DNA of 36,598 nucleotides from Candidatus Magasanikiibacteriota bacterium (GTDB lineage Bacteria; Patescibacteriota; Patescibacteriia; Magasanikbacterales; GWA2-37-8): NCBI GenBank assembly GCA_009694865.1, contig SICD01000007.1, forward strand, positions 1 through 36,598, given 5' to 3'. How positions within the stretch are numbered: the stretch's first letter is position 1; each line of letters opens with the position of its first letter. The position numbers were made by a program, and so were the translations under genes. Shown one piece after another: positions 20,396 through 28,532 of this stretch. The notes under the pieces are model-generated. The model saw only the letters and a program-made list of their open reading frames with translations. It did no database searches and had not been told where the DNA came from.

Positions 20396-23300
20396 CTATT
20401 TCTGACTTGGCATCTCAACCGTCTGTTCCCCAGACTCAAGACGACGCTGCTTTTCTTCTTCCGCTTTTATTTCTTCGGCCGGGCGATATTCGCCGGATTC
20501 GCTCTTACGGAGTAGTTCCACGTCGAGCCCCAGGCCTTTCAACTCACGGACTAACACATTAAATGATTCGGGGATATTTACTTTGTTGACCGGTTCACCC
20601 TTGATGATAGCCTCGTAAGCTTTGGAGCGACCTTGCACATCATCGGATTTGATAGTGAGCATTTCTTGGAGCGTGTGCGCGGCGCCATAGGCTTCCAGCG
20701 CCCACACTTCCATTTCTCCAAAACGCTGGCCGCCAAACTGGGCTTTACCCCCCAAAGGCTGTTGAGTAATAAGCGAGTACGGGCCAATGGAGCGCTGGTG
20801 GATTTTATCTTCCACCATGTGGTTCAATTTCAACATGTAATTATAGCCGATGGTAGTTTTATGATCAAACGGTTCGCCGGTGCGACCATCAAACAGCTGT
20901 ACCTGACCGCTTAAGGGCAAACCGGCTTTGGCAAGTTCGCCTTTAATTTGATCTTCATTAATACCGTTTAAGACCGGAGTGGCCACGCGGTACTGGAGAG
21001 CGTTAGCGGCGAGGCCCAGATGCGTTTCAAGCAGTTGCCCCAAGTTCATACGCGAAATTACTCCTAAAGGAGAAAGAATTATATCAACCGGTGTACCGTC
21101 TTCTAGAAATGGCAAATCGGATACTGGTACCACGCGGGAAACCACCCCCTTATTACCGTGGCGACCAGCCATTTTGTCGCCTACCTGAATTTTGCGCAAA
21201 TCGGCCACCGTAACCTGCACTTGCTTAATAACGCCCGGTTCGAGTTTATCGCCATTTTCGGCGGAGAAAATTTTAACGTCAATAACTTTGCCATGTTCGC
21301 CATGTTCTAAATAAAGCGATGAGTCGCGCACATCGCGCGCTTTGTCGCCGAATATGGCGCGAAGCAAACGCTCTTCCGCCGAGAGTTCGGTTTCGCCTTT
21401 GGGGGTAATTTTACCCGCCAAAATATCGCCGCTTTTTACTTCGGCGCCAATGCGAATAATGCCTTCGCTGTCCAGATTCTTTAATTTTTCTTCACTGACA
21501 TTCGGGATATCGGAAGTTATGACTTCTGGACCAAGCTTGGTTTCGCAGACATCAATGGTGTAGTCTTCAATGTGAATGGAGCTGTAACGATCTTTTTGCA
21601 CAATGCGCTCCGACAGAATGACCGCGTCTTCATAATTAAACCCATCCCACACCATGTAGGCGACCAGAACATTTTGGCCAAGCGCCAATTCACCATCCCG
21701 AATCGCGGGACCATCGGACAGCGGGTCACCGCGCTTTACTTTTTGCCCCACATCAACGGTGGGGTGCTGGTTAATACAGGTGGAGGCATTAGAGCGGTTA
21801 AATTTGTTGAGAGTGTATTTGTGTTCGGTGCCTTTTTTGGTCGTGAGGGTAATTTGGCCTCCGTCCATGGCGGTAATTTCACCGTCTTCGGGCGCGACCA
21901 CCATTTGCCCAGAATAATGCGCGGCGGCTTTTTCCAGACCAGTTCCCACAATGGGCGGCTGGGGCGAAATACAGGGCACGGCTTGGCGCTGCATGTTGGT
22001 ACCCATGAGGGCGCGCGTCGCGTCGTCGTGTTCTAAAAAAGGAATGCAGGAGGTTGCGATGGAAACAATTTGATTGGAATCGACGTCTACGTATTCTAAA
22101 TCAACTGTGGTTGAAACACCGGGGTTCCCGTGGACACGGGCGGGGACGCGCTCATCTTTAAAATAACCCCGTTCATCTACCGCCACGTTCGCCGTGGTGG
22201 TAATAACCCTTTCTTCTTTAAAAGAATTGAGATACAAAACTTCGTTAGTGACACGTGGTTTTACCGGAATAGCGAGAAGCTGGCTTTTGGCTAATTTTTT
22301 AGCAACCTCGGCGGTAATCGCGGTGCCATCAGCCAGGCCTTCCACTACACCGCGGAGAATTTCACCGGCGGTGAGTTTAGGATCGTTGGCCACTTCGCGG
22401 AGCACTTTGCGATAGGGGGTTTCAATAAAACCAAATTCATTAATACGCGCGAAACTAGACAGGTGGTTGACCAAACCAATGTTTGGACCTTCCGGGGTGG
22501 CAATGGGGCAAATGCGGCCGTAGTGGGTGGTGTGCACGTCGCGCACTTCAAACCCGGCGCGATCGCGGGATAGTCCACCCGGACCTAAGGCCGAGAGGCG
22601 ACGTTTGTGCTCCAATTCGGCGAGCGGGTTGGTTTGATCCATGAATTGACTAAGCTGGGAGCTCATGAAAAATTCACGAATCGCGCTAGTTACCGGCCGA
22701 GCGTTAATGAGTTTGTTGGGGGTGAGCTGTTCTACTTCATAGGTACTCATGCGATCCTTAATAATGCGCTCCATGCGCGCCAAGCCCACCCGGAAACGAT
22801 TTTGCGTCAATTCTCCTACCGCGCGCACGCGACGGTTGCCCAGGTGATCCACGTCATCGGGCTCATCTTGAGAAATGTTAAGACGCACTACTTCTTTAAG
22901 TACTAATAATAATTTTTCAGCGGACAAAACTCGATTTTCTTTTTTGTCGTAATCTTCGGCCATGTAACCGAGATCAAATTTGGTATTAAATTTATACACA
23001 CCCACGCGACCCAAATCGTAACGATCAAAATTAAAGAACATGGCATAAATAAGACTTTTGGCATTGTCGGCCGTGGCCAAATCACCGGGACGAATACGCT
23101 TATAAACTTCAATCAGACCTTCGTCGATGGTTTTGGCCAAATCTTTTTTAATAGTCGCGTCAACATAATCGATGTGCGGGTGGTTGTTAACGGCTTTAAA
23201 GCTAGCAAGAATTTGCTCGTCGTTTTCGTAGCCAAAAGCACGCAACAGCGAGGTGGCGGCGATTTTACGTTTTCTGTCAACTTTAATCCAAATAACGCCA

Positions 23301-23827
23301 TTTTGGTCGGTTTCAATTTCAATCCACGCGCCGCGGTTGGGGATAATTTTGGCTCCGTAGTAGCGCCGACCGCGCACATTTTCCGCGGTAAAAAAAGCGC
23401 CAGCCGAACGAATGAGCTGGGAAACCACCACGCGTTCAATACCATTCACTACAAAAGTTCCCCGTTCCGTCATGGCCGGAACATCGCCTAAATAAATTTC
23501 TTGGGTTTTGCTGGACTTGGTTTTGTTGTTTACCAAGCGGGCGTTGACGCGCAGGGGAGATTCAAAGGTTATGTTGCGTTGTCGGCAGGTGACTTCGTCA
23601 AAACGCGGTTCATCCAAATAGTATTCTTCCAGATGCAGTTCTAAATCGCGGCCGCTAAAATCGGTAATGGGAGAAACTTCTTCAAATAATTCTTTGATGC
23701 CAAATTTTAAAAACCAATCGTAAGAATTTTTTTGAATTTCAATTAAGTCGGGCGTTGGCGCGGGGGGGCGACCGGTAAAAAATACCCGTTCGGTACTGGT
23801 GGGTTTTTGTTGCTTGAATGTTGGCAT
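20396..23827 (-). CDS. rpoB: DNA-directed RNA polymerase beta subunit
   Basis: 1143 residues from the ATG at 23827 (MPTFKQQKP). The frame extends 21 codons further upstream, but that stretch overlaps a palindromic repeat and has no family similarity, so the shorter start is chosen. The rifampicin region reads SSQLSQFMDQTNPLAELEHKRRLSALGPGGLSRDRAG-like, with the usual sensitive residues Q, D, H and S in place. Other beta signatures: TPEGPNIGLVNHL, GRHGNKGV, HMVEDKIHQRS and GGKAQFGGQRFGEMEVWALEAYGA. The length is on the short side, as in other reduced genomes. Expression starts at a strong promoter about 350 bases upstream and passes a terminator-like leader, which suggests attenuation. No Shine-Dalgarno site. 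Confidence 0.98.
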   Translation of the reverse strand: MPTFKQQKPTSTERVFFTGRPPAPTPDLIEIQKNSYDWFLKFGIKELFEEVSPITDFSGRDLELHLEEYYLDEPRFDEVTCRQRNITFESPLRVNARLVNNKTKSSKTQEIYLGDVPAMTERGTFVVNGIERVVVSQLIRSAGAFFTAENVRGRRYYGAKIIPNRGAWIEIETDQNGVIWIKVDRKRKIAATSLLRAFGYENDEQILASFKAVNNHPHIDYVDATIKKDLAKTIDEGLIEVYKRIRPGDLATADNAKSLIYAMFFNFDRYDLGRVGVYKFNTKFDLGYMAEDYDKKENRVLSAEKLLLVLKEVVRLNISQDEPDDVDHLGNRRVRAVGELTQNRFRVGLARMERIIKDRMSTYEVEQLTPNKLINARPVTSAIREFFMSSQLSQFMDQTNPLAELEHKRRLSALGPGGLSRDRAGFEVRDVHTTHYGRICPIATPEGPNIGLVNHLSSFARINEFGFIETPYRKVLREVANDPKLTAGEILRGVVEGLADGTAITAEVAKKLAKSQLLAIPVKPRVTNEVLYLNSFKEERVITTTANVAVDERGYFKDERVPARVHGNPGVSTTVDLEYVDVDSNQIVSIATSCIPFLEHDDATRALMGTNMQRQAVPCISPQPPIVGTGLEKAAAHYSGQMVVAPEDGEITAMDGGQITLTTKKGTEHKYTLNKFNRSNASTCINQHPTVDVGQKVKRGDPLSDGPAIRDGELALGQNVLVAYMVWDGFNYEDAVILSERIVQKDRYSSIHIEDYTIDVCETKLGPEVITSDIPNVSEEKLKNLDSEGIIRIGAEVKSGDILAGKITPKGETELSAEERLLRAIFGDKARDVRDSSLYLEHGEHGKVIDVKIFSAENGDKLEPGVIKQVQVTVADLRKIQVGDKMAGRHGNKGVVSRVVPVSDLPFLEDGTPVDIILSPLGVISRMNLGQLLETHLGLAANALQYRVATPVLNGINEDQIKGELAKAGLPLSGQVQLFDGRTGEPFDHKTTIGYNYMLKLNHMVEDKIHQRSIGPYSLITQQPLGGKAQFGGQRFGEMEVWALEAYGAAHTLQEMLTIKSDDVQGRSKAYEAIIKGEPVNKVNIPESFNVLVRELKGLGLDVELLRKSESGEYRPAEEIKAEEEKQRRLESGEQTVEMPSQK

Positions 23828-23883
23828 AAAAACGTTAGGTGAAAGTAAAAAGGTGTAAAGGTGAAAGGGTGGTGGACAGCTGG

Positions 23884-23984
23884 CTGTCATTCCGACGACG
23901 AAGGAGGAATCTCTGTCTCAATTCGCCGATTGTTGTACGGGACAGAGATCCCTCGTCGGCCGCGAGGCCTCGCTCGGGATGACA
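23884..23984. repeat. full TCATTCCGAG-family repeat in the rpoB leader
   Basis: Outer arms TGTCATTCCGA and CGGGATGACA; inner arms AATCTCTGTC and GACAGAGAT. On the minus strand it would fold as a large hairpin between the leader terminator and the rpoB start. Confidence 0.8.
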
Positions 23985-25356: not shown

Positions 25357-25662
25357 ATGGATGACATCGGCATTGTCCCCTGCCCCTGGTGCCAGTGCGG
25401 CTACTGCCGCGTTCTCATGGTGGGCAATCTGTTCATCGGCCCGCCCTTCCACACACTCGCTGGAGGTCTCGAAACCTACGAGGGACTCCTGGAAGCCCAC
25501 GGTCGGATCACGATCTCGGATGAGGAGCTCAAGCAGCTCCGCGACCAGATTCAGGCCGAAGATTACGCCCAGCCGGCGACCACGACCCCGCCCGCCAACG
25601 TCACGATCTTCGTGAGCCCCATCCGCAAGGTCATCGTCTGGGGGCCGCGACTGGTGTCGTGA
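25357..25662 (+). CDS. GC-rich orphan protein with CxxC motifs (101 aa), paralogue B
   Basis: Not recognised. GAGGTGA precedes the ATG by six bases counted from GAGG. Its N-terminus has CPWCQCGYC, a dense Cys cluster that could bind zinc or iron-sulphur, then VLMVG, PF and GL in the same order as the protein at 24547-24930. A charged helix (DEELKQLRDQIQAED) and a Thr/Pro linker lead to a short beta-like end (VTIFVSPIRKVIVWG). High G+C (36 of 60 bases at 25501-25560). It has its own promoter and terminator. Confidence 0.72.
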   Translation: MDDIGIVPCPWCQCGYCRVLMVGNLFIGPPFHTLAGGLETYEGLLEAHGRITISDEELKQLRDQIQAEDYAQPATTTPPANVTIFVSPIRKVIVWGPRLVS

Positions 25663-25750
25663 GAGTTGTTGTTTATCCCATCTCGGGATCCACGCGTCCC
25701 GTTCTGGGACTCAAGGAGGGGTGCCCTTCGCGACACCTTCGCGACACCCT

Positions 25751-25789
25751 AAAAACAGTCCCGAATACTCGGGACTGTTTTTATTTTTT
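25751..25789 (+). terminator. strong intrinsic terminator of GC-rich gene B
   Basis: AAAAACAGTCCCGA-ATAC-TCGGGACTGTTTTT then ATTTTTT: a 14-base perfect stem, usable in both directions. Confidence 0.9.
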
Positions 25790-25797
25790 ATCAACAC

Positions 25798-25826
25798 TTG
25801 ACAAGTTCAATTCCCACCTCTACAAT
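25798..25826 (+). promoter_or_regulatory. sigma70-type promoter of the candidate RNA
   Basis: TTGACA (25798-25803), 17-base spacer, TACAAT (25821-25826). Confidence 0.75.
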
Positions 25827-25832
25827 GGAAAG

Positions 25833-26050
25833 CGAATTAAAAAATATTTTTTCTTCGACTACACTGCGAAAGAGTTGATGTTTTAACCGAACAGAATGCT
25901 AAAAAACATTTCTCTCTTTTACCACTAAAACATCTTCGATGTTTTTTGGTAACGTTTTCTAGCTTCGGCTCGTTAGCTAAAACATGCAGGTCTTCTCGCA
26001 GTGTAGTCGGTGAAAAAGAACAAAAATTCGCCCCTCCCGGCGAATTTTTT
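25833..26050 (+). ncRNA. candidate structured small RNA (about 218 nt)
   Basis: Lies between a good promoter and a strong terminator, with no SD-led or otherwise convincing ORF. The ends are tied by a perfect 14-base stem (CGACTACACTGCGA at 25856-25869 with 25996-26009). Inside, ATGTTTTA (25878-25885) pairs TAAAACAT (25978-25985). A hairpin at 25919-25952 joins TTACCA/TGGTAA and AAAACATC/GATGTTTT around TTC. The AAAACAT/ATGTTTT element occurs about five times, so alternative folds are possible. It does not look like tmRNA, RNase P RNA, SRP RNA or a 6S RNA I could recognise. ftsK follows but has its own -10 region. Confidence 0.65.
26024..26050 (+). terminator. intrinsic terminator of the candidate RNA
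   Basis: AAATTCGCC-CCTCCC-GGCGAATTT with six T residues at 26045-26050. Confidence 0.85.
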
Positions 26051-26140
26051 GAATGTCAAATCAAGCTCAAAATCCAAATCACAGGTTTGTATTTTGGTCA
26101 TTGGAATTTTATTTGGCATTTGACATTGGGATTTTGGATT
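26051..26140. repeat. AT-rich interleaved inverted repeat before ftsK
   Basis: AATGTCAAAT and AAAATCCAAAT on the left are matched by ATTTGACATT and ATTTTGGATTT on the right, in the order a-b-a'-b', so the arms cannot all nest. The unit resembles a dispersed AT-rich element rather than a gene. Confidence 0.6.
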
Positions 26141-26146
26141 TTTTTA

Positions 26147-26155
26147 TGCTATACT
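26147..26155 (+). promoter_or_regulatory. extended -10 promoter of ftsK
   Basis: TGCTATACT (TG-N-TATACT). A weak -35, TTGGGA, lies 18 bases upstream. The leader to the ATG is about 58 bases. Confidence 0.5.
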
Positions 26156-26219: not shown

Positions 26220-28532
26220 ATGCCCTACCCTCGTTACCCGCGTCGGCGCCGCAAAGTTACTTGGTACGAACGCGTTAACCCCAACCCGGAAATTAACCAG
26301 GGAGTTTTAGCGGTGATTCTTTTAATTGTTGGAGTTTTGAGCATTTTAAGTTTTTTTGGGGCGGCGGGCGTGGCCGGCCAATTTATTGACTCTTTGCTCG
26401 CGCTGGTTTTTGGGCAGGTACGCTATTTGTTTCCGCTTATTTTAATTGTTAATGCGATTCTTCTTATCAAAGATTTGGAATATGAATACCGATCTACTCA
26501 TCTTTTGGGAGCGACCTTGTTTTTTTTAAGTTGTAACGGCCTGATTCACTTGGGGAAACCGGTTACTGAAATGGTCAGTGCGGCTATGCAGGGCAACGGC
26601 GGCGGCTTAGCGGGCCTTATTTTGGCCTGGCCTCTCATAACCTATATTGGCTACTGGGGCGCGTTTGTAATTCTGGTGGGACTGTTTATTTTAGCGACTA
26701 TTTTTTTATTCAACACCTCGCTCGCGACCATTGTTAACCTCCACAAAAAATTCTTTCTGGCACTGGGCTTTTTGGGGAATACCCTTATCGCGCTAGTTAA
26801 TTCTTTCCAAAAAAAGCGCGCGGCTAAATTAACTATTCGCGGCGATTACCAAACAGGTCGGCCCGATACTGGTGAAACAATGCCGGAATCAGACAGCGAT
26901 AATGCTGACACCGATGAAGAGACCCGCGTTTTTGAACATAAGACAATGGCGCGCCAGGAAGCGTCTGAAGAGGAAGAGGGCGCTGAAGCGGTCGTGGAAG
27001 ATACTCTACCCGATGGTGAGATTATGAAGATAAAACCCGCTCCGATAGTGTACCGCGCTTTGCCGAGCTTGGATCTTTTGCACACCTCAAAAAGCAAACC
27101 CAGCGCCGGTGATATTAAAGGTAACGCCCAAGTAATTAAAGACACCCTACGAAATTTTGGTATTGAAGTAGATATGGGCGAGATACGAGTAGGCCCTACG
27201 GTAACGCAATATTCACTTAAGCCATCGGCGGGAATCAAGCTCACGCGCATTACGGGCTTGGCTAATGACTTGGCGCTCTCTTTAGCCGCCCACCCCATTC
27301 GTATTGAAGCGCCCATTCCGGGACAATCGTTGGTTGGCATTGAAGTGCCTAACCAAAAAGTGGCTACAGTAACCTTGCGCGAACTATTAGAGAGCCCTGA
27401 ATTTAAAGTGCGCGAACATAATATGATGATCGCGATTGGTAAAGACGTGGCGGGCAAAGTATGGTTCGCAGGGCTACCCAAAATGCCCCACTTGCTTATT
27501 GCCGGCACCACTGGTTCGGGCAAAACCGTGTGTATTAATACCGTGATTTTAAGCCTTCTTTTTCAAAATACCCCCGAGACGCTCCGTATGATAATGGTGG
27601 ATCCTAAACGAGTGGAGCTGACACTATATAATGGTATTCCCCATTTGCTCACACCAGTGATTACCGACGCGCTGAAAACGGTGAACGCCTTAAAGTGGAC
27701 GATTGGCGAGATGGATCGGCGTTTTGACGTGCTTTCGGCGGCGGGCAAACGCGATATCGCGTCTTATAATAAAACCGCGGCGGAAAAATTGCCCTACATT
27801 GTGTTTGTAATCGACGAATTGGCAGATCTTATGGCAATGGCCGGCAACGAAGTGGAGGCGGGCATTATCCGCATCGCGCAAATGGCGCGCGCGGTTGGCA
27901 TTCATTTAATTGTGGCTACGCAACGGCCGAGCGTGGAAGTGATTACCGGTCTTATGAAGGCTAATATTCCGGCACGCATTGCTTTTTCAGTAGCTTCCAT
28001 TGTGGATTCGCGCACTATTTTAGATTGCCAAGGAGCCGACAAACTGCTGGGGCGCGGCGACATGTTGTTTTTAACCGCGGAGCTATCTAAACCTAAACGC
28101 CTCCAAGGCGCGTATATTTCGGAAGAAGAAATGAAAAATGTGGTTGAATATTTAAAAGGCGACGAACCGCCCAGTTACGATGAATCCATTGTTTCCAAGT
28201 CGAACGAACGAAGTGGCACCATAAATATGTTTGGCGGACCCAGCGATGATCATGACCCGCTGTTTGATGAAGCCAAGCGAGTGGTGATAGAATCGGGTAA
28301 GGCTAGCGCCTCGTTACTCCAGCGCCGCATGAAGGTGGGTTATGCTAGGGCCGCTCGGCTCTTGGATGAATTGGAAGAGAGTGGTATAGTAGGGCCGGCT
28401 GATGGCGCTAAACCGCGAGAATTATTCACCGAACATTTGCGCCCCTCGGAAGAAGAAATTCCCGCCGATGAACAGACGATGGACGCGGGAGGGACGGTGT
28501 TTGATGAAACGCCAGAAGAAAAACCAGAATAA
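26220..28532 (+). CDS. ftsK: FtsK/SpoIIIE DNA translocase
   Basis: 770 residues. It pumps DNA at the division septum to resolve chromosomes. The N-terminus has about four membrane helices (roughly 24-170), then an acidic linker rich in Glu/Asp (about 215-265). The motor follows: alpha/beta domain, Walker A GTTGSGKT at 429-436 and Walker B VFVIDELADLM. The ATQRPSVEVITG segment is also present. The C-terminal winged-helix gamma domain (DEAKRVVIESGKAS...RRMKVGYARAARLLDELE) reads orienting DNA sequences. Complete and of normal bacterial length. No Shine-Dalgarno site. The RodZ-like gene starts 6 bases after its stop. Confidence 0.97.
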   Translation: MPYPRYPRRRRKVTWYERVNPNPEINQGVLAVILLIVGVLSILSFFGAAGVAGQFIDSLLALVFGQVRYLFPLILIVNAILLIKDLEYEYRSTHLLGATLFFLSCNGLIHLGKPVTEMVSAAMQGNGGGLAGLILAWPLITYIGYWGAFVILVGLFILATIFLFNTSLATIVNLHKKFFLALGFLGNTLIALVNSFQKKRAAKLTIRGDYQTGRPDTGETMPESDSDNADTDEETRVFEHKTMARQEASEEEEGAEAVVEDTLPDGEIMKIKPAPIVYRALPSLDLLHTSKSKPSAGDIKGNAQVIKDTLRNFGIEVDMGEIRVGPTVTQYSLKPSAGIKLTRITGLANDLALSLAAHPIRIEAPIPGQSLVGIEVPNQKVATVTLRELLESPEFKVREHNMMIAIGKDVAGKVWFAGLPKMPHLLIAGTTGSGKTVCINTVILSLLFQNTPETLRMIMVDPKRVELTLYNGIPHLLTPVITDALKTVNALKWTIGEMDRRFDVLSAAGKRDIASYNKTAAEKLPYIVFVIDELADLMAMAGNEVEAGIIRIAQMARAVGIHLIVATQRPSVEVITGLMKANIPARIAFSVASIVDSRTILDCQGADKLLGRGDMLFLTAELSKPKRLQGAYISEEEMKNVVEYLKGDEPPSYDESIVSKSNERSGTINMFGGPSDDHDPLFDEAKRVVIESGKASASLLQRRMKVGYARAARLLDELEESGIVGPADGAKPRELFTEHLRPSEEEIPADEQTMDAGGTVFDETPEEKPE

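Follow-up and report, generated by a model that had tools for sequence, protein, structure and literature searches.

A conserved, rod-shaped candidate non-coding RNA with a predicted open CU tract in Candidatus Magasanikbacteria

The locus and its predicted fold

The window, by which is meant the whole stretch of 36,598 nucleotides that was analysed, carries a predicted gene for a small structured RNA between rpoB and ftsK. The features considered here are the following.

20396..23890, minus strand: rpoB, the divergent neighbour on the other side of the RNA gene
25798..25826, plus strand: promoter of the RNA gene, TTGACA-17-TACAAT, matching the consensus at 11/12 positions
25833..26050, plus strand: RNA gene, predicted transcript of about 218 nt, both ends inferred
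25848..26017, plus strand: long interrupted rod of the minimum free energy (MFE) structure
25864..25868, plus strand: conserved CTGCG, pairing with CGCAG at 25997-26001
25910..25918, plus strand: CU tract (TTCTCTCTT region), predicted unpaired; no other single-stranded element is conserved as well
25919..25952, plus strand: apical hairpin of 14 pairs, from the fold; its sequence is variable among relatives
26022..26050, plus strand: intrinsic terminator hairpin and T-run, from the fold and homologous loci
26126..26155, plus strand: promoter-like site of ftsK, TTGGGA-18-TATACT with TG, 9/12
26220..28532, plus strand: the neighbour ftsK, with domains FtsK_4TM, FtsK_alpha, FtsK_SpoIIIE, and FtsK_gamma

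The promoter consists of a −35 box TTGACA (25798-25803) and a −10 box TACAAT (25821-25826) separated by a 17-nt spacer. The start of the transcript is inferred at about 7 nt past the −10 box and its end at the T-run of the terminator, whose stem of 11 pairs (26022-26032 with 26039-26049) immediately precedes that run. Open reading frames (ORFs) inside the RNA are all short, the longest in the window copy having 10 codons, and comparison of the homologous loci revealed no ORF common to the copies of relatives. The promoter-like site of ftsK lies downstream of the RNA terminator and is separate from the RNA promoter; TATACT or TATAAT occurs at the equivalent place in three other loci (L005, L008, and L107).

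Just 5′ of the RNA promoter, a strong terminator-like hairpin of 15 pairs with a T-run is present at 25750-25783 and would insulate the RNA gene from upstream transcription. The adjoining segment 24500-25750 has a GC content of 0.54-0.62, as compared to 0.36-0.49 in the surrounding sequence, and contains an ORF (25357-25659) in which no Pfam domain was found. The distance from rpoB to the RNA is about 1.9 kb here and about 0.7 kb in relatives. By these three features, the segment is probably an insertion.

The predicted structure is a long rod closed by the pairing of 25848-25873 with 25991-26017, and covariation (described below) spans this helix, helix 1. Within it lies a perfect stem of 14 bp (25856-25869/25996-26009), followed by an inner stem of 8 bp (25878-25885 with 25978-25985). 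The apical hairpin is formed by 6 + 8 pairs (25919-25924/25947-25952 and 25927-25934/25938-25945) and corresponds to helix 4 of the covariation analysis, where double changes are observed at every pair. In the CTGCG/CGCAG helix the pairs U-A, G-C, C-G, and G-C are invariant in 24/24 family copies. The CU tract of the window copy occupies an asymmetric internal loop on the 5′ side of the apical hairpin; its predicted unpaired probability is ≥0.9 throughout, and its alignment columns are near-invariant. The MFE is −78.6 kcal/mol, as compared to −40.9 ± 4.3 kcal/mol for dinucleotide shuffles (z −8.8; 0/200 as good). Being a rod, the element folds strongly on the reverse strand as well; the covariance model scores 172.5 bits on the plus strand of the window and 48.8 on the minus strand.

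A preliminary description, made without database searches, had proposed a consensus promoter and a strong terminator bracketing about 218 bases with no convincing ORF, tied by a perfect 14-base stem with an 8-base inner stem and a 14-pair inner hairpin, and all of these elements were confirmed. It had also counted five copies of AAAACAT/ATGTTTT, which is correct (AAAACAT three times and ATGTTTT twice in 25798-26050). The alternative folds that these repeats were suggested to permit have no support from relatives, in which the rod is retained but the repetition of AAAACAT is not.

Conservation, distribution, and neighbourhood

A BLAST search of 95 related genomes gave convincing homologs only within the same family. 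Sixteen of these homologs share one rod fold, and in their alignment the UGCG/CGCA helix is invariant and the unpaired CUCUCUC nearly so. With a covariance model, one copy was found in each of 24/25 family genomes at 89-172 bits, the only member without a convincing copy being G002. The same model with strict filters detected no convincing copy in 61 genomes from other families of the same order.

The compensatory base changes in the RNA exceed chance. In the 16 sequences, 92.4% of cells are paired and double changes occur at 29/50 pairs; in the 24 sequences, the corresponding values are 93.4% and 26/40. None of 500 control shuffles was as good, and paired cells drop to 40-50% when the structures are slid along the alignment. 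A promoter matching at ≥10/12 positions precedes 29 of the 31 homologous copies, as compared to 5.5% of shuffles, and a terminator was recognisable by a crude scan in 18/31 homologous loci. Taken as sequences, the copies resemble independent genes, with a promoter and a terminator at these frequencies and with no long or common ORF, though no transcript has been shown. The locus is thus very likely a real conserved noncoding RNA gene, with the reservation that its transcription is inferred only from the conserved promoter and terminator.

Outside the family, more diverged copies were recognised in six or more other families of the same class, which we take to be ABY1. The scores are 38.7 bits (E 1.5e-6) for G091 (f14), 64.8 bits (E 5.8e-13) for G409 and 39.3 bits for G463 (both f146), 36.7 bits for G392 (f166), and 25.5 bits for G478 (f173). 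Three further copies, in G437 (f146), G092 (f15), and G638 (f192), came from a pattern search or visual inspection, and anatomy is the basis of their assignment. Assignments outside the family thus rest on weaker scores plus anatomy, and those in f15 and f192 on anatomy alone. Weak R3 matches at L108-L116 and L178-L180 were rejected as copies, being low-scoring and mostly short or partial; inspection of the L178-L180 sequences showed that they lack the anatomy. What is shown is therefore a family-wide, single-copy, rod-shaped RNA of about 180-220 nt in Candidatus Magasanikbacteria, with more diverged forms in other families; its noncoding transcript is inferred.

In the family, ftsK follows the RNA in about half of the copies, and rpoB often flanks these copies on the opposite side. 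Among the diverged copies, those of G091, G092, G392, and G409 also have ftsK as their immediate downstream neighbour, an arrangement shared with the window that supports common descent. The copy of G478 is upstream of rpoB. Other family copies have different neighbours, such as cobalamin adenosyltransferase or HNH endonuclease, and the RNA is therefore not dependent on ftsK. The copy of G018 adjoins a reverse transcriptase gene (PF00078; L038:301-1458), a proximity that is probably incidental.

The position of the CU tract differs among families. It is 5′ of the apical hairpin in the family and in f146, and 3′ of it in f14, f15, f166, f173, and f192 (G091, G092, G392, G478, and G638). In the copy of G091, part of the tract is paired in the predicted MFE structure. 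Since CUCUCUC is kept on either side of the apical hairpin, selection seems to act on a tract, predicted to be open, at the top of the rod rather than on one exact fold.

Known RNA families and rival explanations

At gathering score, Rfam 15 gave no match in the window, and permissive filters gave only low-scoring, chance-level matches, all under the cut-offs. Ten homologous loci searched against Rfam yielded tRNAs only, and the G409 copy yielded nothing at E ≤ 1. With respect to Rfam, the RNA family is new, having no homolog among 4227 families, but its mechanism may prove to be of a known type. The preliminary description had found no match to a known RNA class, which holds for Rfam at gathering score. 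The covariation check in relatives that it had suggested was run, and the strong covariation supports its reading of a structured small RNA in what looks like an independent unit, the transcription of which is inferred. The reported location upstream of ftsK holds for the window, but this position looks ancestral and not a sign of cis control, because many copies have other neighbours and a −10 box specific to ftsK follows the RNA terminator.

Identity with 6S RNA was tested because the Rfam 6S family is undetected in these genomes: RF00013 matched 0/27 genomes at E ≤ 1, including that of the window. Of 287 Patescibacteria genomes, it matched 22 at E ≤ 0.1 and only 3 above the cut-off; matches in the wider phylum are full-length, mostly sub-threshold, and have 6S anatomy. 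A 6S core model built from these matches, R2, found 6S in 56/86 genomes of the order at E ≤ 1, most with far better E-values. The R2 loci differ from the locus studied here, which R2 does not pick. Four R2 copies inspected in the family fold as 6S and have T-run terminators. For the window genome, R2 returned nothing better than a weak, partial match, so the 6S of this genome was not found. The Rfam 6S model under-detects 6S in Patescibacteria (loci L065-L068, L070-L076, and L077-L106, e.g., L093, L095, L100, and L104). The proposal that the RNA is the 6S of its lineage is rejected, given the separate 6S found in many of the same genomes by the Patescibacteria model. Identity with the signal recognition particle (SRP) RNA is likewise rejected, as there is neither a match nor an SRP-like apex. 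RF00169, the bacterial small SRP RNA, matched 0/19 genomes of the order, including that of the window, and controls matched in 12/14; in this order the SRP RNA may have been lost, be of another type, or be very diverged.

A possible alternative is a trans-acting small RNA (sRNA), in which the CU tract would pair with purine-rich, Shine-Dalgarno-like stretches of mRNAs and block their translation, as LhrC does. An unpaired CU-rich tract is a typical sRNA seed in low-GC bacteria, and the RNA is predicted to expose one, a feature of CU-rich-loop sRNAs; in several homologs the tract reads UCUCUCUCCUC, which is nearer to an anti-Shine-Dalgarno sequence. Listeria LhrC binds lapB mRNA over the Shine-Dalgarno by three CU-rich sites (PMC4132741). 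However, in 15 family genomes the complement of the 9-nt tract, AAGAGAGAG, is no more frequent than its reversed control. Among the complement sites inspected, none on the sense strand immediately precedes a start codon, and related proteins account for only two pairs of sites. Before 315 gene starts, GAGAG was counted once and AGAGAG never, as compared to 2 and 1 in the control zone; AGGAG is enriched there (13 vs 2). Moreover, conservation covers the whole rod and not the tract alone. An anti-Shine-Dalgarno role is therefore disfavoured. Base-pairing is not excluded, because a short seed of 6-7 nt would escape the 9-nt target test. An internal pairing between the tract and the closing stem's purine-rich 3′ strand was judged by eye to be inconsistent across families and was discarded.

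The other rivals are weaker. The RNA might be a second 6S-like RNA that binds RNA polymerase, its rod imitating open DNA with the CU tract as one strand of the bubble. This is suggested by the size of about 180-220 nt, by the rod shape, by the unpaired bubble that separates the long closing stem from the apical hairpin, and by the position adjoining rpoB in many genomes (upstream of it in G478). Bacillus subtilis is an example of a bacterium with a second 6S. The idea is nevertheless unlikely, since the Rfam 6S model does not match, R2 locates a distinct 6S elsewhere in many of these genomes, and the RNA has a one-sided bubble and lacks both the CCACC motif and the 3′ bubble hairpin. A cis-acting leader regulating ftsK could account for the position directly 5′ of this gene, seen in roughly half of the family copies as well as in G091, G092, G392, and G409, but other genes follow the RNA in the rest of the family, the RNA has its own terminator, and the −10 box of ftsK comes after it; this explanation is very improbable. 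A structured repeat or mobile-element relic without RNA function is all but ruled out. Near-palindromic rods can be mobile-element ends, and the model scores the opposite strand too, but the single copy per genome, the vertical conservation, the promoter on one side, the covariation, and the score difference between the strands (172.5 vs 48.8 bits) all speak against it.

A putative protein-binding role and comparison with known systems

A protein-bound RNA with the CU tract as landing site is inferred to be preferable to an anti-Shine-Dalgarno sRNA. A bound protein is suggested by the base pairs that stay invariant within the stems (UGCG/CGCA and others), and it fits better with the occurrence of conserved bases in both the tract and the helices. 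No protein partner has been shown, and the reading remains tentative, being slightly more apt to prove wrong than right. In this hypothesis, the RNA would act in trans, the conserved rod serving as a scaffold that holds the single-stranded CUCUCUC open beside the apical hairpin. The tract would be the binding site of a pyrimidine-specific RNA-binding protein, which the RNA may titrate or tether. Rho, S1, and cold-shock proteins prefer pyrimidines, and Rho prefers YC dinucleotides, of which UCUCUCUC is a run. These three are put forward as candidate partners without binding data, and their presence in these genomes is assumed. A bolder reading, regarded as unlikely, would make the RNA an undescribed class ancestral to the whole class of Patescibacteria, namely, a housekeeping ribonucleoprotein that sequesters a global RNA-binding protein, e.g., the termination factor Rho, via CUCUCUC. 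If true, a global RNA-binding protein would be sequestered in genomes of about one million bases.

The RNA gene likely does something important, because it is kept in the small genomes of 24/25 family members and is recognisable in other families. Patescibacteria (Candidate Phyla Radiation) represent a large share of bacterial diversity; the literature searched yielded no paper on their structured RNAs or on an RNA of this kind. With the covariance model and the CUCUCUC signature, the RNA can be tested for directly in metatranscriptomes.

Among known systems, 6S RNA (RF00013) is similar in size, in the rod with its long closing stem, internal single-stranded region, and apical hairpin, and in having its own promoter and terminator. 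The RNA differs from the 6S of Patescibacteria in the missing CCACC motif and 3′ bubble hairpin and in the one-sidedness of its bubble; it has no Rfam match and coexists with a true 6S in many genomes. The bacterial SRP RNA (RF00169) is likewise a housekeeping-type hairpin RNA, whereas the apical hairpin of the RNA is variable and lacks a conserved SRP-type tetraloop. With Listeria LhrC, RNAIII, RsaE, and FsrA, the RNA shares independent transcription, predicted here, and an exposed CU-rich single strand; no homology to LhrC-type sRNAs and no target signal at start codons were seen. LhrC itself is a short sRNA that folds into several hairpins, carries UCCC motifs, and has mRNA targets (PMC4132741), whereas the RNA described here is one long rod carrying CUCUCUC.
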